Shown here one piece after another: positions 23,178-32,517 of a stretch of 35,923 nt of DNA (position 1 is the first letter of the stretch; every line of letters begins with the position of its first letter). Both the position numbers and the translations under genes were made by a program. Source of the stretch: Bacillota bacterium (lineage in GTDB: Bacteria; Bacillota; Clostridia; Eubacteriales; Eubacteriaceae). The stretch is taken from positions 1 through 35,923 of the forward strand of contig JAHIQT010000016.1 in assembly GCA_018903255.1 (NCBI GenBank). Direction: 5' to 3'. The notes beneath the pieces are model-generated. The model had not been told where the DNA came from and did no database searches. It saw only the letters and a program-made list of their open reading frames with translations.

Positions 23178-24195
23178 AACCGATTTTTACTACGATCTCC
23201 CCGATGAATTGATCGCTCAGAGTCCCCTCGAAAAAAGGGATGCGTCGCGGTTGATGGTGATTAACCGGGAAAAGAACACGGTTGAAGATCGTCAATTTTT
23301 TGAAGTGACCGGGTATTTGCGACCGGGAGATTTACTGGTGATGAATAACACCAAGGTGCTGCCGGGACGGCTGTTCGGCACGCGTGAAGATACGGGTGGC
23401 AAGGTCGAAATCCTGTTGCTGCGACACCTGTCTCAAAAAGACTGGGAAATCATGGTCAAGCCGGGAAAACGCGCCCGAGTCGGTGCCCGGATTGTTTTTG
23501 GGCCGGAGCTTAAGGGCCAAATCACGGGAACCACCCAGGGCGGGTTACGGATAATCAGCTTTGAATATGCTGGTATTTTTGAGGAAATCATCGATGAGAT
23601 CGGGCTGATGCCGGTACCGCCCTACATTCACGAAACCCTGAAAGACAATAACCGCTATCAGACCGTGTATGCCAAACATGCAGGCTCGTCAGCGGCGCCC
23701 ACTGCCGGGCTCCATTTCACCCCAGATTTGCTTCAAAAAATTGAAGAGATGGGAGTCGATATTGCCGAGGTTACCCTCCATGTTGGCATCGGCACCTTTC
23801 GTCCAGTAAAATGTGATGTGATAGAAGAACATCATATGCATGAGGAGTATTATGAGGTGTCAGAAGAAACCGCCAGAGCTATTAAACGAACCAAGGAAAG
23901 AGGCGGTCGGGTGATCGCCGTGGGTACCACCTCGGTGCGAACCTTAGAAAGTAATGCCAAGCTTCATGATGGGGTGGTGACCGCCTACACTGGAGTGACG
24001 GATATTTTTATTTACCCCGGTTATCAGTGGGAGGTGGTCGATGCTCTGATTACGAACTTCCATCTGCCGGAATCGACCCTGCTGATGCTGGTCTCGGCCT
24101 TTTATAACCGGGAAGCGATCATGAAAGCCTACCAAACCGCAATTGACTGGAAATATCGTTTTTTCAGCTTTGGGGACGCCTTACTGATTGAATAA
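23170..24195 (+). CDS. queA: S-adenosylmethionine:tRNA ribosyltransferase-isomerase QueA
   Basis: QueA transfers and isomerises the ribosyl part of SAM onto preQ1-modified tRNA to give epoxyqueuosine. The 341-residue product starts [12 protein letters not shown] and has the conserved [35 protein letters not shown] and [10 protein letters not shown] segments. The usual [10 protein letters not shown] motif follows the N-terminus. ATG at 23170 lies inside the ruvB end, with GAGGAAG as ribosome site. The next gene, tgt, acts one step earlier in queuosine synthesis. Confidence 0.96.
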
Positions 24196-24207
24196 AAAGA
24201 TGATTAG

Positions 24208-25338
<1,131 letters not shown>

Positions 25339-25355
25339 GATGAAGGAGAATGTGA

Positions 25356-25739
25356 ATGTTTGGAATTGATTTTACGTTAATTCTTCCTTTGATATTAGTA
25401 CTTGTATTTTTCTATTTCTTTATTTTAAGACCACAGCAAAAACAACAAAAAGAGATTAAAGAAATGCGATCAAGTATGAAACCAGGGGATGAAATTGTTA
25501 CAATTGGCGGATTTTATGCAATCGTCTATGCGATCGGTGAAGAAAATGTGACCATCGAATTATTGCCAGATTACAATAAGGCGCTGATTACCAAATCGGC
25601 TATTGCTCGAATTGTCAATGTTGGGGACGCTGTTGCAGAAACAGTAGCAGACGATTTTGAAGAGCTGGAAGACCTGGATAATGAAGAAGTCATTGTCGAC
25701 GCCGAATTTGAAGAAATCGACGAAGAAAAAAAATTATAA
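25356..25739 (+). CDS. yajC: Preprotein translocase subunit YajC
   Basis: YajC is a small membrane partner of SecDF. The 127-residue product has one transmembrane helix (about 7-24, [18 protein letters not shown]), the family stretch RPQQKQQKE, and [19 protein letters not shown]. The C-terminal tail is highly acidic, ending [16 protein letters not shown] precedes the ATG. secD and secF, often next in line, are replaced here by the SCIFF peptide and its maturase, an association of yajC with SCIFF that is common in clostridia. Confidence 0.95.
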
Positions 25740-25750
25740 AGAACTGACCA

Positions 25751-25794
25751 GCGATTGGTTAACTGGTAATTATCAGCTTAGCGCCGACAATCGC
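25751..25794 (+). other. Structured leader upstream of the SCIFF peptide gene
   Basis: GCGATTG (25751-25757) pairs perfectly with CAATCGC (25788-25794). Inside, CTGGT (25763-25767) pairs with ATCAG (25772-25776) around AATT. There is no T tract, so it is not a terminator. It lies between the yajC stop and the scfA ribosome site. Confidence 0.4.
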
Positions 25795-25826
25795 GGATAG
25801 AACAATTTTTGAAGGGAGTGAACAAT

Positions 25827-25970
25827 TTGAAGCACATTAAAATCATTAAAGAAGGTAAACTCACTGACGTAAAAAACAGAGGGTGCGGGGAATGCCAAAC
25901 TTCCTGTCAATCAGCCTGTAAAACTTCCTGTACGGTAGGAAACCAAAAATGCAAACAAACTGAAAAATAA
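25827..25970 (+). CDS. scfA: SCIFF peptide precursor (six cysteines in forty-five residues; ranthipeptide)
   Basis: This is a 47-residue peptide translated from TTG at 25827, with AGGGAG eight bases before it. It starts MKHIKIIKEGKL, then carries six cysteines at 20, 23, 27, 31, 35 and 42, including CGECQTSCQSACKTSCTVGN, the hallmark of the SCIFF family. The leader (about 1-18) should be recognised by the maturase encoded just downstream. Family peptides receive Cys-to-Thr thioether links; here T36, next to C35, and T25 and T33 are possible partners. SCIFF peptides are nearly universal in clostridia, and quorum-sensing-like roles have been proposed. No exporter or protease gene is beside it. 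A terminator separates it from the maturase. Confidence 0.93.
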   Translation: MKHIKIIKEGKLTDVKNRGCGECQTSCQSACKTSCTVGNQKCKQTEK

Positions 25971-25981
25971 TAAAGAGCCTG

Positions 25982-26016
25982 AAAGGGGCTGTCTCGTAAG
26001 AGATAGTCCCTTTTTT
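25982..26016 (+). terminator. Terminator/attenuator between the SCIFF peptide and its maturase
   Basis: AAAGGGGCTGTCTC (25982-25995) pairs with GAGATAGTCCCTTT (26000-26013) through 14 pairs including two G-U, loop GTAA, ending in six T. Partial read-through would make much peptide mRNA and little enzyme mRNA. Confidence 0.85.
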
Positions 26017-26031
26017 GATGATAGGAGAAAA

Positions 26032-27381
26032 ATGATACATAAATATAAAAAGAACGGCCTTAATATCGTTTTGGATGTCGATACCAGCACGGTGCTGACC
26101 GTTGATGAACTGACCTATGAATTGCTGGATCACTACGAGGATCAAAGCAGAGCCGAAATAATCGCAAACTATCAAGAAAAATATCCGATTGCAGAAATTT
26201 CTGAATGCCTTGATGAATTGGACAGTGTCAAAGCGACCGGGTTATTATTCCGGGAAATTGACTATCAACGCGAAAATTATGCCAATGAGGATTTGATTAA
26301 AGCGCTTTGTCTCCATGTCGCTCATGACTGTAACCTGAAATGTTCCTACTGTTTTGCCGCCCAGGGGGACTTTGAAGGTGAAAAATTGTTGATGCCGCTG
26401 GAAGTGGGTCAAAAAGCGATTGACTTTATCATCGCCCAGTCTAAGAACCGTGAAAATCTGGAGGTTGATTTTTTCGGCGGTGAACCGCTGATGAACCTCG
26501 AGGTGGTCAAACAATTGGTCATCTACGGCAATGAAATGGCCGCCAAACACAATAAGAAATTCAAATTTACGATGACCACCAATGGGGTCTTGCTCGATCC
26601 AAAAACCCGTGAATATCTCAATGAAACGATGGATAATATCGTTCTTAGCCTGGATGGTCGTAAAGCCGTCAATGATCAGATGCGACAAACCATCAATAAT
26701 CAGGGTTCCTATGATGTGATTATCGACAATATCAAAGCAATGGCAAAAATGCGGGGTGACAAAGATCATTATGTTCGGGGAACCTATACCCATCATAATC
26801 TTGATTTTGCCAAAGATGTAGAATTTTTGGCAAAAGAGGGTTTTAAAAGCATATCGGTGGAACCGGTAGTGGCTGAAGCGACGCACGATTACGCCTTGAC
26901 CGAAGCGGATCTGCCCACCATTATGAAAGAATATGATGATCTGGCTCTGGCTTACCTGAAACGTCATCAGGAGGGGCTTCACTATAACTTTTTTCATTTT
27001 AATGTCGATTTGGATCATGGCCCCTGTGTTTATAAACGGCTGTCTGGCTGTGGGGCTGGTAAAGATTATGTTGCGGTGACGCCGGAAGGTGACGTCTACC
27101 CCTGTCATCAATTTGTCGGAAATGAAGCTTTTAAGATGGGCGATGTAAGAAGTGGGATCACCAACGGCGAAATCAAAAAAATCTTTGATGCCGGCAACCT
27201 GTTAGAAAAAGAAGCCTGTCAAAGCTGCTGGGCTAAATACTTCTGTGGCGGCGGCTGTCATGCTAACGCCTACAACTTTAACGGTACCATTATGGAACCC
27301 CATTTTGTCAGCTGCGAAATTGAGCGCCGGCGAGTCGAAAATGCCATTATGATTTCGATTATCGAAGGCGAACAGGAATAA
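26032..27381 (+). CDS. scfB: SCIFF maturase, radical SAM/SPASM thioether-forming enzyme
   Basis: The 449-residue enzyme should install thioether bonds in the SCIFF peptide. The N-terminal part (about 1-90) is the RiPP-recognition-like domain. The radical SAM site is CNLKCSYC (C100, C104, C107), with GGEP at 149-152. The C-terminal SPASM region has many cysteines: C340, C358, C396, C399, C405, C409 and C428 (CGAGKDY, PCHQF, CQSCWAKYFCGGGC, SCE), expected to hold two auxiliary [4Fe-4S] clusters. Studied relatives are CteB of Clostridium thermocellum and Tte1186. AGGAG precedes the ATG. It is read through from the peptide gene past a strong terminator, as no separate promoter is evident. Confidence 0.95.
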   Translation: MIHKYKKNGLNIVLDVDTSTVLTVDELTYELLDHYEDQSRAEIIANYQEKYPIAEISECLDELDSVKATGLLFREIDYQRENYANEDLIKALCLHVAHDCNLKCSYCFAAQGDFEGEKLLMPLEVGQKAIDFIIAQSKNRENLEVDFFGGEPLMNLEVVKQLVIYGNEMAAKHNKKFKFTMTTNGVLLDPKTREYLNETMDNIVLSLDGRKAVNDQMRQTINNQGSYDVIIDNIKAMAKMRGDKDHYVRGTYTHHNLDFAKDVEFLAKEGFKSISVEPVVAEATHDYALTEADLPTIMKEYDDLALAYLKRHQEGLHYNFFHFNVDLDHGPCVYKRLSGCGAGKDYVAVTPEGDVYPCHQFVGNEAFKMGDVRSGITNGEIKKIFDAGNLLEKEACQSCWAKYFCGGGCHANAYNFNGTIMEPHFVSCEIERRRVENAIMISIIEGEQE

Positions 27382-27404
27382 GCTGTTAGGGTTGGCGTGA
27401 ACTA

Positions 27405-27441
27405 CCGTACCGACCAATGACCAAGGGGTCAGACCCTTGTT
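27405..27441. repeat. Short copy of the REP-like element end
   Basis: From CGTACCGACCAATGACC to GGGTCAGACCCTTGTT this matches, inverted and with about two differences over some 33 bases, the right end of the element at 15219-15252. Only this end is present. On the + strand CAAGGG (27422-27427) and CCCTTG (27434-27439) form a hairpin followed by TTTT, so it may act as terminator of scfB. Confidence 0.65.
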
Positions 27442-27493
27442 TTAATCTACCCCCTGGGTTTTTTGACAAGAATGGATATTTGTGGTAGATTAA
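27442..27493. promoter_or_regulatory. Perfect 10-bp inverted repeat spanning the rho promoter
   Basis: TTAATCTACC (27442-27451) and GGTAGATTAA (27484-27493) are perfect inverted arms with a 32-bp spacer. The right arm covers the -10, and the left arm ends 11 bp before the -35. This geometry could suit a repressor contacting both sides of the promoter. No regulator gene lies nearby. Confidence 0.5.
27463..27491 (+). promoter_or_regulatory. Promoter of rho
   Basis: TTGACA (27463-27468) and TAGATT (27486-27491) are 17 bp apart. The start near 27498 leaves a leader of about 130 nt that is poor in G, especially from 27550 to 27612. Confidence 0.7.
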
Positions 27494-27628
27494 GGTATCT
27501 ACATTAAACAAACCTTCAGATTATTCTGCGACTGGAAGCATCATATCAGTACAGCAAAATTAAAAACAAATCAAAATTTCATTCTAAGATCAATTACTAC
27601 ATCACCTAAAACCCACGGAGGCATTATA

Positions 27629-29356
27629 TTGGAAAAGAAATCATTGGAAGATTTAACGGTTGTTGAACTACGTAAACAGGCGGAGAATCTAGGGATCGAG
27701 AAAACAAGTCGGCTTAAAAAAATTGAATTGATTGAGGCCATTGAAGAAAAATTAGAGACTTCGGCAGAGCCAGAGCATCATCATCAGATAAAAGGAAATG
27801 AACAATTGACAGACGATAAAGAAGTAGCTGAAAAAAAAGACCAGGAAAAACAGCCAGGTCAAGCTAGTCAGCGGCTCACTAATGGCACAAATGGAAACGG
27901 CGCTCGTTCTCCCTATTACAAGATCAAAGATTCCATGGATAATGTCGTGGTGGTGGAAGGGAATCTGGAAATCCTGCCCGAAGGGTTTGGTTTTGTTAAA
28001 AATAGCCAGATGAAATCTCAGGAGGAGTTTGTGTATATTTCCGGCTCCCAGATACAGAAATTCAAGTTAGAAACCGGCGATGTCTTAAGCGGCAAGGTGC
28101 GCCCACCCAAAACTGGGGAAAAATATTCAGCGATGCTGTTTTTGGAAAAGGTCAACGGGACGAAAACAGCGGACATTATCCACAAGATCAATAGTATGCT
28201 ATATGTTGATGATAAAAAGGATTTGGATCGCTTTAAGACCTCCCAGGAAGGGATTCTGGATGTCAATTCTGATGGCTTTGGATTTTTAAGAACCAACCAT
28301 TATTTATCCGGAGACCACGATATTTATGTCGCCGCCAACCAGATTCGCCGCTTTAATCTCCGTACCGGGGATAAAATTCTCGGAAAAATTAAGATGTCCG
28401 GCGAAAATGAAAAATTTGACGCCCTGCTTTATGTCGAAAAGGTCAACGGCGATATTCCCGAAAAGATTGCCAATCGGCCGCGCTTTGAACGGCTGACACC
28501 GATTTTTCCGGAAGAGCGGATCACCCTGGAAACCACTCAGGATGTTGTCTCAACCCGGATGATCGATTTGTTTTCACCGATGGGAAGAGGCCAGCGGGGA
28601 TTGATCGTGGCGCCGCCGAAAGCTGGAAAGACGATTCTTTTAAAAGAAATTGCCACTGGCATTACCACCAATTATCCTGAGATTGAATTGATCATTCTGC
28701 TAGTCGACGAACGCCCCGAAGAAGTCACCGATATGAAGCGATCGATCGATGCCGATATTGTCTATTCAACCTTTGATCAGCCTCCGGAAAACCACATCAA
28801 GGTCGCTGAAATTGTGCTGGAACGGGGTAAGCGGCTGGTTGAACAGGGCAAAGACGTGGTGATTCTGGTCGATAGTTTAACCCGCCTGACCCGGGGAAAC
28901 AATCTGGTGGTTTCACCGTCAGGTCGAACCCTGTCGGGGGGGCTTGACCCGGAAGCGCTATTCTTTCCTAAAAAATTCTTTGGTTCTGCCCGAAATGTTG
29001 AAGAGGGCGGCAGTTTGACGATTCTGGCAACAGCCCTGGTCGATACCGGCAGCCGGATGGATGACATTATCTTTGAAGAATTTAAAGGGACTGGTAATAT
29101 GGAACTGCATCTGGAACGGGAATTGGCTGAACGGCGGATCTACCCGGCCATCAATCTGAACCGTTCGGGAACCCGACGGGAAGAAAAACTCTTAACCGCT
29201 GAAGAACTGAAAGTCAGCTTTGATATCCGTAAACTTTACAAGGGAACCACGGTTTATGACCTCACCGATAAGATTATTTCGATTCTGGAACGGACTAAAG
29301 ATAACGAAGCATTTATGAAAAAATTTATTGATAAATATAAAGCACAAAATATTTGA
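27629..29356 (+). CDS. rho: Transcription termination factor Rho with two tandem cold-shock/OB RNA-binding domains
   Basis: Rho is the hexameric RNA helicase that ends transcription. It starts at TTG 27629 with GGAGG seven bases upstream. The 575-residue product has a Rho_N helical domain (1-45), a charged linker (46-95), and then two OB domains instead of one. The first (about 105-177) has GFGF at 119-122, Y136 and EKY at 164-166. The second (about 203-275) has GFGF at 216-219, DIYV with Y233, and EKF at 261-263. The ATPase follows with Walker [24 protein letters not shown] and [21 protein letters not shown]. Both OB copies keep the aromatic RNA-stacking residues known from E. coli Rho. The ATPase motifs are intact, so it should be functional. 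Confidence 0.96.
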
Positions 29357-29381
29357 TCTTTTAAGAAATGTTTGATATAAT
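29353..29381 (+). promoter_or_regulatory. Promoter of rpmE
   Basis: TTGATC (29353-29358) overlaps the rho stop codon and is followed, after 17 bp, by consensus TATAAT (29376-29381). Confidence 0.75.
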
Positions 29382-29439
29382 ACGACGGTTGATAAAATAA
29401 CAATTAGCAATTAAATAAATAAGAAACGAGGTGGATTCG

Positions 29440-29655
29440 ATGAAAGAAGGCATTCATCCAAATTACGGCAAATCAATAGTTAAATGTGCATGTGGAAATT
29501 CATTTGAAACTGGTTCTATCAAACCAGAATTAAGAGTGGAAATCTGTTCAGTATGTCACCCATTCTTCACAGGGAAACAAAAACTTATTGATGCTGGTGG
29601 ACGTGTTGATCGATTTAATAAAAAATACGGCATTAAAAACGAGTCAGCAGAATAA
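29440..29655 (+). CDS. rpmE: 50S ribosomal protein L31, zinc-binding type
   Basis: The 71-residue ribosomal protein starts at ATG 29440 with GAGGTG six bases away (the GTG at 29431 is part of that site). It begins [10 protein letters not shown] and has the zinc-ligand cysteines of the C+ form: CAC near residue 16 and CSVC near 37, followed by HPFFTGKQK. The rho-rpmE order is common in Firmicutes. It has its own promoter and terminator. Confidence 0.97.
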
Positions 29656-29660
29656 AAAAG

Positions 29661-29687
29661 AAGTCGGTTCTTGTAACCGGCTTTTTT
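29661..29687 (+). terminator. Terminator of rpmE
   Basis: AAGTCGGTT (29661-29669) pairs with AACCGGCTT (29675-29683), with one G-U pair, and ends in six T. Confidence 0.88.
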
Positions 29688-29736
29688 CTTGTTCGGATGT
29701 AAAAATGGTTTGTAGTTTTAAGTTGAGGTAGGAAAA

Positions 29737-30621
29737 ATGACAATCAAAGAGATTTTAGATTTTGGGCGGCAGTCTCTTACTCAGGCCGGAATCGAATACC
29801 CGGGTTTAGAGGCGGAGATTCTGCTAAGCGCGATTTTGGATCAGGATCGGGTCTATTTTTATACCCATTCACAGGAATTGGTCGACTTAAAACAAGCAGA
29901 AACCTATCGCAGTGTAATAAAAAGACGCGGCCAATTAGAACCGGTAGCCTACATTCTGGAAAAAAAAGAATTCATGGGGATGGATTTTTTTGTCAATCGC
30001 GATGTTTTAATCCCCAGACCAGATACCGAGCCAATGGTGGAGTACTTGATTCACTATTTGCAAGTTAACTTCCCAGAAGGAGCTAAAATTCTGGATCTGT
30101 GCACCGGCAGCGGAGCAATTGGGATAGCGATTAAGAAACACTATCAAAAAGGTGCGGTCAGCCTCAGTGATTTTTCTGGAGCTGCGCTGGCAGTAGCCAA
30201 AATCAATGCCAATCAATTGGTCAAGGACGATCTTTCGCTTTATCAGGGAGACTTATTTGCCGCCATTCCCGAAGCCCAAACCTTCCACTTGATTGTCTCA
30301 AACCCCCCCTATATCAGTCAGGCAGAGATGAAGAAGCTGTCCCGGGATATTATTGAGTACGAACCCCATATGGCACTTGATGGTGGCGCATCGGGTTTGG
30401 ACTTTTACCGGCGGATTATTGAAGAGGCGTATTTGTTTTTGGAAAAAGACGGTCTATTAGCACTGGAAATCGGTGATAGTCAAAGCGGAACCGTGATGGA
30501 AATGTTAAAAAATAGCGGCTATCAGGAGATCCAGACGATCAGGGATCTGGGTGGACATATTCGGTGTGTGACCGGCAAATTATCCAGATTGAAGCCCGCT
30601 GATTATAATAAATTGGGATGA
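29737..30621 (+). CDS. prmC: Release factor glutamine N5-methyltransferase PrmC
   Basis: PrmC methylates the GGQ glutamine of release factors RF1 and RF2. The 294-residue product has the N-terminal helical release-factor-binding domain, then YILEKKEFMGMDFFV, RPDTEPMVE, the SAM-binding LDLCTGSGAIGI (119-130) and the catalytic NPPYIS (189-194). GAGGTAGG precedes the ATG. prfA, the usual neighbour together with rpmE, is not in this stretch, so the gene lies directly between rpmE and efp. Confidence 0.95.
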   Translation: MTIKEILDFGRQSLTQAGIEYPGLEAEILLSAILDQDRVYFYTHSQELVDLKQAETYRSVIKRRGQLEPVAYILEKKEFMGMDFFVNRDVLIPRPDTEPMVEYLIHYLQVNFPEGAKILDLCTGSGAIGIAIKKHYQKGAVSLSDFSGAALAVAKINANQLVKDDLSLYQGDLFAAIPEAQTFHLIVSNPPYISQAEMKKLSRDIIEYEPHMALDGGASGLDFYRRIIEEAYLFLEKDGLLALEIGDSQSGTVMEMLKNSGYQEIQTIRDLGGHIRCVTGKLSRLKPADYNKLG

Positions 30622-30698
30622 CGTCGTCTAAAAATTGTGATAGAATGATAATATTGATTTAAAAAGAAAAAATTAACATAGGCATAGCGGAGGTAAAC

Positions 30699-31256
30699 AT
30701 GGTATCAGCAGGAGATTTTAAAAAAGGTGTAACGTTTGAAATGGATGGACATACATTTACCATCATCGAATTTCAACACGTAAAACCAGGTAAAGGCGCG
30801 GCCTTTGTTCGAACAAAGATTCGAAATGTTATTACCGGAGCAGTGGTAGAAAAATCATTTAGTCCGACAGAACGTTACCCTAAAGCACAGGTAGAAACCC
30901 GTGAAATGGAGTACTTATATGAAGATGGTGGTTTATACTATTTCATGGACCAGGAAAGCTATGAACAAATTCCTTTGAACCTGAACCAGGTCGAGGAAGC
31001 ATTGAAATATCTAAAAGAAAATGATATTGCCACGGTAAAATCTTTAAAGGGTGTGGCATTTTCAGTAGCAGCGCCTAACTTTGTGGAATTAGAAGTTGTT
31101 AAAACCGATCCCGGCTTTAAGGGCGACACCGCCACCGGTGCCAATAAACCGGCAACTGTTGAAACCGGTGCAGTTATTACTGTCCCACTTTTTGTGGAGC
31201 AAGGTGATAAGATTCGAATCGATACCCGTACGGGTGATTACATGGAAAGGGTATAA
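30699..31256 (+). CDS. efp: Translation elongation factor P
   Basis: EF-P relieves ribosomes stalled at polyproline stretches. The 185-residue length is standard. It begins [17 protein letters not shown], and the tip loop [10 protein letters not shown] carries Lys32, the residue that is modified in many bacteria. The C-terminal OB domain ends with [11 protein letters not shown], a family signature. GCGGAGG precedes the ATG. No EpmA-type modifying enzyme is in the window. The next gene begins one base after its stop codon, so the two are tightly coupled. Confidence 0.98.
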
Positions 31257-31257
31257 A

Positions 31258-31689
31258 ATGAAATATATTAATGAAAAAGTTGCTTACACCAAAGGTTTGG
31301 CAGATGGTCTGGAGTTAGATCTGACTTCTAACGAAGGCAAGGTTCTGGTTCAGGTACTGGATATTCTTGAAGACATTGTCGATGCCCTCGATGGTATTAC
31401 TGAAGCTCAGGAAGAGCTGGAAGAATACGTGGAAATGGTTGATGATGATCTTTCTGAGCTGGAAGAGTTTATTTTGGATGAGGATTATGACGGAGACGAA
31501 GATTTTGAGTTTGATGAAGAAGACTACTATGAAATCATTTGTCCGGAGTGCGGAAATGTTTACATCACCGAATTTGAATCCTTTGAAAGCAATACCGTCG
31601 CTTGTCCGGATTGCGATGCCCCGTTTATATTAAATGAAGAGATTTCGTGCTGTGGTGAGGATGGTTGCGACTGCCATCAGGAAATCTAA
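31258..31689 (+). CDS. CD1247-type zinc-ribbon protein
   Basis: The 143-residue protein follows efp by one base. The N-terminal helical domain MKYINEKVAYTKGLADGL (about 1-60) is the part shared with CD1247-like clostridial proteins. A very acidic linker (about 60-92) follows. Then comes a zinc-ribbon-like unit with CPECGN (C95, C98) and CPDC (C116, C119), and a C-terminal cysteine cluster (C131, C132, C137, C139). The ribosome site is the GGAAAGG at the end of efp. The role is unknown; conserved linkage to efp suggests something connected with translation or cell-envelope regulation, but this is inference. Confidence 0.7.
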   Translation: MKYINEKVAYTKGLADGLELDLTSNEGKVLVQVLDILEDIVDALDGITEAQEELEEYVEMVDDDLSELEEFILDEDYDGDEDFEFDEEDYYEIICPECGNVYITEFESFESNTVACPDCDAPFILNEEISCCGEDGCDCHQEI

Positions 31690-31707
31690 AGAACTCAGGT
31701 TATTAAG

Positions 31708-32052
31708 ATGAAAAGTGAAATGAAAAACAATCAGTCCCCGAAGATCAATGACGAAATGATCGTTTCGATTGTCAGCTTGGCGGCTACTGGCGTTAACGGT
31801 GTGGCGCGTATTTCATTGAGAATCACCGATGAAATCATGGATAAACTTTATCTTGCTTCTACAATAAAAGGTGTCAAGATCGCCAGAGAACCGGAAGGTC
31901 TGATGATCTGGGTTTATCTTATCACCGAACCCGGAGTAGATATTATTAAGGTTTCAAATGCAGTTCAGAAAAAAGTTAAGGTTGCGGTCGAAGCCATGGC
32001 TGGTTTCCAGGTGGCGGCGGTTAATGTCCGAATTGAAGGTTCGGGGATATAG
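31708..32052 (+). CDS. Asp23/Gls24 family envelope stress-type protein
   Basis: The 114-residue product matches the small Asp23 (DUF322) proteins: NDEMIVSIVSLAATGVNGVARI, then GVKIAREPEGLMIWVYLIT and VSNAVQKKVKVAVEAMAGFQVAAVNVRIEG. Such proteins sit near the membrane, and in Staphylococcus they affect cell-wall stress. The unit efp-CD1247-like-asp23-nusB is common in clostridia. The ribosome site (CAGG at 31695-31698) before the ATG at 31708 is weak; ATG 31720 is an alternative. A terminator overlaps its stop codon. Confidence 0.85.
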   Translation: MKSEMKNNQSPKINDEMIVSIVSLAATGVNGVARISLRITDEIMDKLYLASTIKGVKIAREPEGLMIWVYLITEPGVDIIKVSNAVQKKVKVAVEAMAGFQVAAVNVRIEGSGI

Positions 32053-32070
32053 GGGCGGATCGCCCCTTTT
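32051..32070 (+). terminator. Short terminator overlapping the Asp23 gene stop codon
   Basis: AGGGGCG (32051-32057), loop GAT, CGCCCCT (32061-32067), then a four-T tract. The short T tract suggests partial termination before nusB. A TATAAT (32072-32077) follows directly, without a visible -35. Confidence 0.65.
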
Positions 32071-32100
32071 ATATAATAATGGAATCTGAAGGAGCAATGC

Positions 32101-32517
32101 ATGAGTCGAAAGAAGGAACGGGAATATGCGCTAAAAGGTGTATTTCAATTGGATTTTCATCCGGAACCAGGAGATTTTACCGATAGTATTGCATATTTTT
32201 TAGAGGATAATGAGCTGGATCTGGTTTATGGAAAGACCTTAATTGATACCACCGAAGCCCATCTTTCTGAAATAGATAATATTCTCGATGATTATCTTAA
32301 AAGCACCTGGAAGATTGATCGAATTCCAAAGGTAGAAAAGTCAATTCTGCGTTTGGCTATTTGTGAGTTGAAATATATGGATGAAAAGGTGCCATTTGAA
32401 GTGGTTATCAACGAGGCGATCGAGCTAAGTAAAAAATTCGGAGACGAGGATGGAAAAAATTACGTTAACGGTATCTTAAATAAAATTGTTAAGGATGAAC
32501 TCAATGAGTGCCCTTAG
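32101..32517 (+). CDS. nusB: Transcription antitermination factor NusB
   Basis: NusB works with NusE (S10) on boxA RNA during rRNA transcription. The 138-residue all-helical protein has REYALKGVFQLDF, then the stretch WKIDRIPKVEKSILRLAICEL and PFEVVINEAIELSKKFGDEDGKNYVNGILNKI (in adjoining parts), which are diagnostic. AAGGAG precedes the ATG at 32101. Its last bases overlap the start of the next gene. Confidence 0.95.
   Translation: MSRKKEREYALKGVFQLDFHPEPGDFTDSIAYFLEDNELDLVYGKTLIDTTEAHLSEIDNILDDYLKSTWKIDRIPKVEKSILRLAICELKYMDEKVPFEVVINEAIELSKKFGDEDGKNYVNGILNKIVKDELNECP

Follow-up and report, generated by a model that had tools for sequence, protein, structure and literature searches.

Rho of Escherichia coli, the canonical form of this transcription termination factor, carries one RNA-binding OB (cold-shock) domain per subunit. 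Proteins with several OB/cold-shock domains occur elsewhere, as in RNase II and RNase R. Rho proteins that bear an N-terminal insertion domain (NID), such as those of Mycobacterium tuberculosis, Micrococcus luteus and Clostridioides difficile, have extra material in their N-terminal half that can alter RNA binding; according to excerpts of PMC8828861, PMC4499133 and PMC7446863, neither the length nor the composition of NIDs is conserved, that of M. tuberculosis is predicted to be disordered, and NID-bearing Rhos occur in about 35% of species (PMC7446863). Here we describe a rho gene in a 35,923-nucleotide stretch of an Acetobacterium-like draft genome (contig JAHIQT010000016.1; the window) whose product has two OB domains per subunit, the extra one (OB1) lying between the N-terminal helical domain and the ordinary one (OB2). 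The doubled Rho is a real, conserved, lineage-specific variant of the factor. Unlike NIDs, OB1 duplicates the RNA-binding domain itself in a folded and conserved form, and does not qualify as an NID; only the linker at residues 46-93 resembles an ordinary short one. Compared with RNase II and RNase R, OB1 belongs to PF07497 and does not qualify for the RNase B OB family PF08206, which is matched by OB2 only (28.3 bits, cut-off 24).

A reading made from the DNA letters alone (the sequence-only reading) had proposed a duplicated primary RNA-binding domain, and profile searches bear this out. Both OB domains lie in one reading frame, and PF07497 matched the whole protein in two stretches (187.5 bits) rather than in the single one that would have refuted the reading. 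Taken separately, OB1 scored 90.7 bits (E 5.1e-26, profile positions 1-71 of 73) and OB2 104.9 bits (E 1.9e-30, positions 2-73 of 73), both against a cut-off of 27. The residue numbers that we checked are as given in that reading: GFGF at 119-122 and 216-219, Y136 and Y233, EKY at 164-166 and EKF at 261-263. Aligned with each other, the copies agree at 27 of 72 positions, with an alignment score of 130 (1000 shuffles: mean -26.6, sd 10.3, maximum 15), and to residues 48-121 of E. coli Rho they are identical at 34 (OB1) and 39 (OB2) of 72. In the predicted model OB1 is folded, at a per-residue confidence (pLDDT) of about 79 to 88 in blocks of ten, and the Rho_N region forms helices at 3-7, 11-20 and 31-44. 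The RecA-type motor with its Walker A motif, joined to an OB domain, marks the protein as Rho, as do the NCBIfam models NF006886 (668.3 bits, cut-off 315) and TIGR00767 (637 bits, cut-off 509.45); the short-form Rho paralog model NF041509 gave 462.2 bits, below its cut-off of 628. A non-Rho OB family is not favoured as the source of OB1, which matches Rho in sequence (14 of 14 PDB sequences at E <=0.1), in profile (PF07497 as the sole family above cut-off) and in fold (all 50 of the matches listed). The length of the linker is highly variable across doubled Rhos and that of the two OB domains is not; one doubled Rho (L092 / L146) has a far longer N-terminal part, with OB1 starting at about residue 263 in a 733-codon frame.

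The proposed survey of PF07497 across the family returned two domains in every matched genome of the window's family (36 of 36; 4 of the 40 genomes were without a match). Within the order, 62 of 67 genomes were matched, and the 59 doubled ones are all matched genomes of four families (f1, f2, f3 and f5); the three sampled members of a fifth (f4; G059, G060, G061) have a single OB domain. The order genomes without a match are uninformative, namely the incomplete G008, G019, G037 and G038 and the 96%-complete G052. Outside the order, our samples covered the window's phylum. No tandem was present in the 227 genomes matched at E <=0.001 among the 278 outside-order members of a 291-genome class sample, nor in the 284 matched besides the window's own among 398 genomes of a phylum sample; together these give 0 of 504 distinct matched genomes (7 common to both samples), three of which were matched below the family cut-off (two in the class sample, one in the phylum sample). 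Second matches did occur, in 2 of 278 genomes of the class sample (G176, G189) and in G425, G519, G636, G657 and G677 (the same as G176) of the phylum sample. All of them are below the cut-off and at another site in the genome, so none represents an independent tandem duplication.

When a single genome from each of 84,980 species was scanned with tandem-alignment patterns, 49 loci came up, 47 with both OB domains and two with one (L148 and L149, 'Clostridia bacterium'); these patterns were derived from the doubled clade, so that distant independent cases could not be revealed by them. The records of 44 of the 47 doubled loci are titled as Eubacteriaceae-type (Acetobacterium, Eubacterium, Alkalibacter, Alkalibaculum, Pseudoramibacter, Anaerofustis or 'Eubacteriaceae bacterium'), and the other three are labelled as Firmicutes, Clostridiales and Lachnospiraceae metagenome-assembled genomes. 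Named strains with the doubled Rho include Acetobacterium wieringae DSM 1911, Eubacterium callanderi FD and Pseudoramibacter alactolyticus ATCC 23263. When OB1-OB2 was searched against plasmids by tblastn, the matches listed (10 of 51) spanned 249 to 351 bases, which leaves no room for a pair of OB domains.

The doubled Rhos go back to one old internal tandem duplication, which took place in the ancestor of four of the five sampled families of the order and has been retained since. In a careful tree computed from 41 hand-picked Rho rows with OB1 removed, the 23 doubled proteins form a single clade (100/100, confirmed over all 200 bootstrap trees), to which the three single-OB Rhos of the order are sister (98/98); a quick 87-row tree is concordant (doubled clade 100, order clade 94). 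In a tree of the domains themselves, OB1 (58 rows) and OB2 (58 rows) each form one clade, at 100 and 97, respectively, which places the duplication before the split of the families, and there is no sign of homogenisation between the copies. With 85 columns, too few to settle which domains are closest kin, this tree rejects neither OB1 plus OB2 (approximately unbiased test, p-AU 0.818) nor OB2 plus the order's singles (p-AU 0.69).

The flanks of the domains fit a tandem duplication within one gene in which the outer flanks were retained. The motif KLKDSIEDA lies immediately N-terminal to the OB domain in the three single-OB Rhos of the order, and a similar motif precedes OB1 in all 61 doubled loci (59 genomes), precedes OB2 in none and is absent before the OB domain from all 30 of the other class singles. 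Conversely, a downstream R..F..L flank follows OB2 in 60 of 61 doubled loci and OB1 in none. Loss of one copy in f4 is possible but would be less parsimonious. The single-OB loci with KLKDSIEDA (L083 and L097 in G059, L082 and L042 in G060, L034 and L093 in G061) constitute natural unduplicated controls.

How have the two copies diverged? We take the core pocket for a pyrimidine-cytidine (YC) dinucleotide to consist of aromatics at 62, 64, 80 and 110 together with R66, D78 and E108 (E. coli numbering, which we checked against the RefSeq record of E. coli Rho); R66 and D78 are reported from the crystal structures of 1999 and 2003 to read the second-base cytosine. Residues were counted in the 58 distinct doubled frames that 59 genomes supplied (46 distinct sequences each of OB1 and OB2), in which near-copies within one genus weigh heavily, after removal of the window copies (L001, L002), twice-fetched loci and identical open frames; L099 and L100 gave no Rho. 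For comparison we used 33 distinct single-OB frames: 28 best-scoring loci of the class sample, G176, G189 and the three of the order. The YC pocket is described in PMC8828861 and PMC4499133, and PMC4150792 reports Y80C and F62S as extremely defective in RNA binding. In excerpts of PMC11018626, the core site of E. coli Rho takes two nucleotides and an extended site the preceding ones; the latter is lined by D60, F62, P83, S84, Q85, R87, R88, F89 and residues 102, 105 and 115 (printed there as K102 and R105, where RefSeq has R102 and K105), and binding of rut RNA is abolished by R88E and reduced by K115E.

Retention of the E. coli RNA-contact residues is asymmetric between the copies. OB1 keeps Y80 and E108 in 58 of 58 frames, F/Y62 in 58 and Y110 in 57 (F in 1), along with the extended-path residues S84, Q85, F89 and R102 (58 each), K105 (53; R in 5) and K or R at 88 (58); position 66 is K in 41 and R in 5. 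OB2 keeps R66 and D78 in 58, Y80 in 57 (F in 1), F64 in 56, R87 in 53 (K in 5), F/Y110 in 52 (N in 2, Q in 4) and E108 in 50 (D in 8), and has lost K105 in all frames and S84 in 48 (kept in 10), with Q85 in 45 and L58 in 7. Among the single-OB Rhos, R66, D78, Y80, R87 and E108 are present in all 33, S84 in 32 and K105 in 28 (R in 4). Counts over distinct domains (46 OB1, 46 OB2 and 28 singles) are concordant, with D78 in 1, R87 in none and K/R105 in 46 of the OB1 sequences, and D78 and R66 in 46 of 46 and K105 in none of the OB2 sequences. Position 115 is uninformative: where E. coli has an important lysine, OB1, OB2 and singles alike have an aromatic residue. In the window, OB2 has the complete canonical YC-type core (F217, F219, R221, D231, Y233, E261, F263); OB1 does not, with F134 at the position of D78.

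The sequence-only reading had noted that the copies keep complementary motifs (RPPKxGExY in copy 1, a different part in copy 2), which recur across the order, and both copies largely retain the aromatic stacking residues. Its suggestion of twelve potential primary sites per hexamer is not borne out in that form. Given that OB1 has lost D78 and R87 and mostly has K for R66, and that OB2 has lost K105 and mostly S84, the twelve domains of a hexamer do not amount to equivalent sites; six canonical and six divergent sites would be the better wording, and the copies look specialised.

What might a second OB domain do for Rho? We favour, at a probability of roughly 0.6, a role of OB1 as an auxiliary RNA-gripping domain on an otherwise normal Rho motor with a tandem-duplicated OB domain. 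OB2, adjoining the motor, would be the usual YC loading site, and OB1 would add a grip on single-stranded RNA at the outer rim. With its stacking and extended-site residues kept and its second-base pocket, which would prefer C, apparently rebuilt, OB1 is expected to have a weaker or different base preference. Through OB1 and OB2 together, each subunit would hold a longer stretch of RNA, and loading sites that are weak or not very rich in C might be bound more tightly before ring closure. Such a grip, lengthening and strengthening the primary contact of each subunit, would be the most economical mechanism, and a wider or longer RNA loading footprint is plausible. For OB1 we infer the binding of RNA itself, and likewise its base preference, its footprint and any influence on termination.

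Both OB domains are under purifying selection. Across 17 of the 18 matched members of the genus (136 pairs; the truncated L007 was left out), ratios of nonsynonymous to synonymous divergence (dN/dS, NG86) are 0.123 for Rho_N, 0.306 for the linker (residues 46-104), 0.049 for OB1, 0.028 for the inter-OB segment, 0.024 for OB2 and 0.021 for the motor, a sixfold contrast between linker and OB1. Several observations weigh against an RNA-gripping OB1. The ratios are rough, with mean dS at 1.0 to 1.6 and thus near saturation, and the rate of evolution of OB1 is about double that of OB2. OB1 no longer has the whole canonical pocket: D78 is lost in 57 of 58 frames (kept in 1) and replaced by an aromatic residue in 37 (Y 18, F 15, W 4), R87 is lost in all 58 (Q 56, T 2), and F64 remains in 45 (L 6, I 6, V 1). 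The mean net charge of OB1 (-1.9) is no more positive than that of OB2 (-1.4) or the singles (-1.9). Not every conserved contact matters, F89S leaving rut RNA binding intact in an excerpt of PMC11018626. Among 51 columns conserved in singles, contact residues account for 10 of the 19 that are asymmetrically kept and for 7 of the 32 others (Fisher p 0.034), a modest excess that depends on thresholds and a contact list of our choosing. Finally, the 30 class singles lean towards the canonical, 28 of them being among the best-scoring of 227 matched genomes.

A related and more tentative proposal, which we consider possible though somewhat short of even odds, is that the ancestral RNA site was split into two specialised ones, OB2 keeping the second-base pocket (R66, D78) and R87, and OB1 the extended path (S84, Q85, K105) with a rebuilt second-base pocket. 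Each subunit would then read a composite element about twice as long, and Rho of this order would use a loading code that differs from that of the Rhos studied to date and depends less on C.

Alternatively, OB1 could be a protein-contact module that docks on an adjacent subunit of Rho, on RNA polymerase or on a Nus factor, its conserved residues serving the interface. The loss of D78 and R87 would be in line with this, as would positions at which OB1 is fixed for another residue than the singles (Q87 in 56 of 58 frames, V101 in 56, P104 in 52; E117, in 57, is common to OB2, in 55) and the strong conservation of the inter-OB segment; according to the abstract of PMC11018626, surfaces of Rho bound by Rof also take part in RNA polymerase interfaces. 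A pure protein role would, however, have no need of the near-invariant Y80, E108, Y/F110, S84, Q85, R102 and K/R105, which are RNA contacts in E. coli, and we regard it as unlikely. Less likely still is a spacer or regulatory lid that sets the distance of Rho_N or holds the ring open or closed, with RNA binding a minor matter: the placement of OB1 between a disordered linker and a conserved segment would suit it, but nothing in a spacer role calls for Y80, E108 and an aromatic at 110, which all 58 OB1 frames have. That OB1 is the decaying relic of a neutral duplication might be suggested by its faster evolution and by its scoring below OB2 against a single-OB-domain profile in 61 of 61 doubled loci; in our view this very improbable reading is refuted by the strong purifying selection, by the invariant pocket residues and by the retention of OB1 in 59 of 59 matched genomes of f1, f2, f3 and f5. 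The draft state of the metagenome-assembled host genome (216 contigs, 83.2% complete) could hint at an assembly or contamination artefact, but the chance of one is negligible, and the same architecture in 59 genomes of the order, named strains included, rules it out.

The gene and the domains of its product are listed in the table below. Elsewhere in the host draft genome (G000, 2.9 Mb) PF07497 had no further match, and rho encodes the sole Rho motor found there. The nearest named records to the N-terminal stretch of the protein are HGW-Firmicutes-4 (a Firmicutes metagenome-assembled genome) and Acetobacterium dehalogenans DSM 11527, each 97% identical. Just 5' of rho lie genes for a SCIFF ranthipeptide precursor with six cysteines (25809-25970; TIGR03973, 74.1 bits, cut-off 50) and its radical-SAM maturase (26032-27381; TIGR03974, 629 bits, cut-off 425), preceded by tgt and yajC. 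By eye, the gap between the maturase gene and rho contains an intrinsic-terminator-like hairpin (27422-27443; CAAGGG-GTCAGA-CCCTTG followed by TTTT), which leaves about 185 bases to the rho start; no Rfam family reached its gathering score within 24000-31500 of the window. On the 3' side (29431-32517) follow ribosomal protein L31, prmC, efp, two further open reading frames and nusB, so that rho is grouped with translation and antitermination genes.

Table. Coordinates of rho and of the domains of its 575-residue product in the window
Feature	Position	Strand	Basis
GGAGG ribosome-binding site	27617..27621	+	7 nt 5' of the rho TTG start; sequence read directly
rho, transcription termination factor, 575 aa, TTG start	27629..29356	+	open reading frame; NF006886 and TIGR00767
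Rho_N (PF07498) helical domain, residues 6-42	27644..27754	+	Pfam, 37.9 bits, cut-off 24.9
Disordered, fast-evolving linker, residues 46-93	27764..27907	+	pLDDT <50 for 46-93; dN/dS for 46-104
OB1, first (extra) Rho_RNA_bind domain, residues 105-177	27941..28159	+	PF07497
Inter-OB segment, residues 178-202	28160..28234	+	model helices 180-191 and 199-202; pLDDT ~60 at 191-200
OB2, second (canonical) Rho_RNA_bind domain, residues 203-275, joined to motor	28235..28453	+	PF07497
C-terminal RecA-type motor, Walker A PPKAGKT, residues 285-575	28481..29353	+	PF00006 (ATP-synt_ab) at 309-513; motif from translation

What is the relevance of a doubled OB domain? Among the titles and abstract openings of the best matches in the open literature (20 of 4,206 for one query), no description of a duplicated Rho RNA-binding domain appeared; earlier notice of it may exist, and any automatic domain annotation would give two PF07497 matches. 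The choice of RNA sites by Rho is described by loose rules (pyrimidine- or C-rich, G-poor, unstructured) in the cited part of PMC12350095. A natural Rho with two divergent reading domains lends itself to testing how individual residues determine affinity, footprint and the choice of base, and the single-OB family f4 provides a direct before-and-after comparison within the order. Acetogens and gut anaerobes both belong to the lineage in which the doubled form is fixed, and a possible use lies in terminator prediction in biotechnological acetogens. Its divergent copies suggest that the doubled Rho may have its own way of reading RNA targets.
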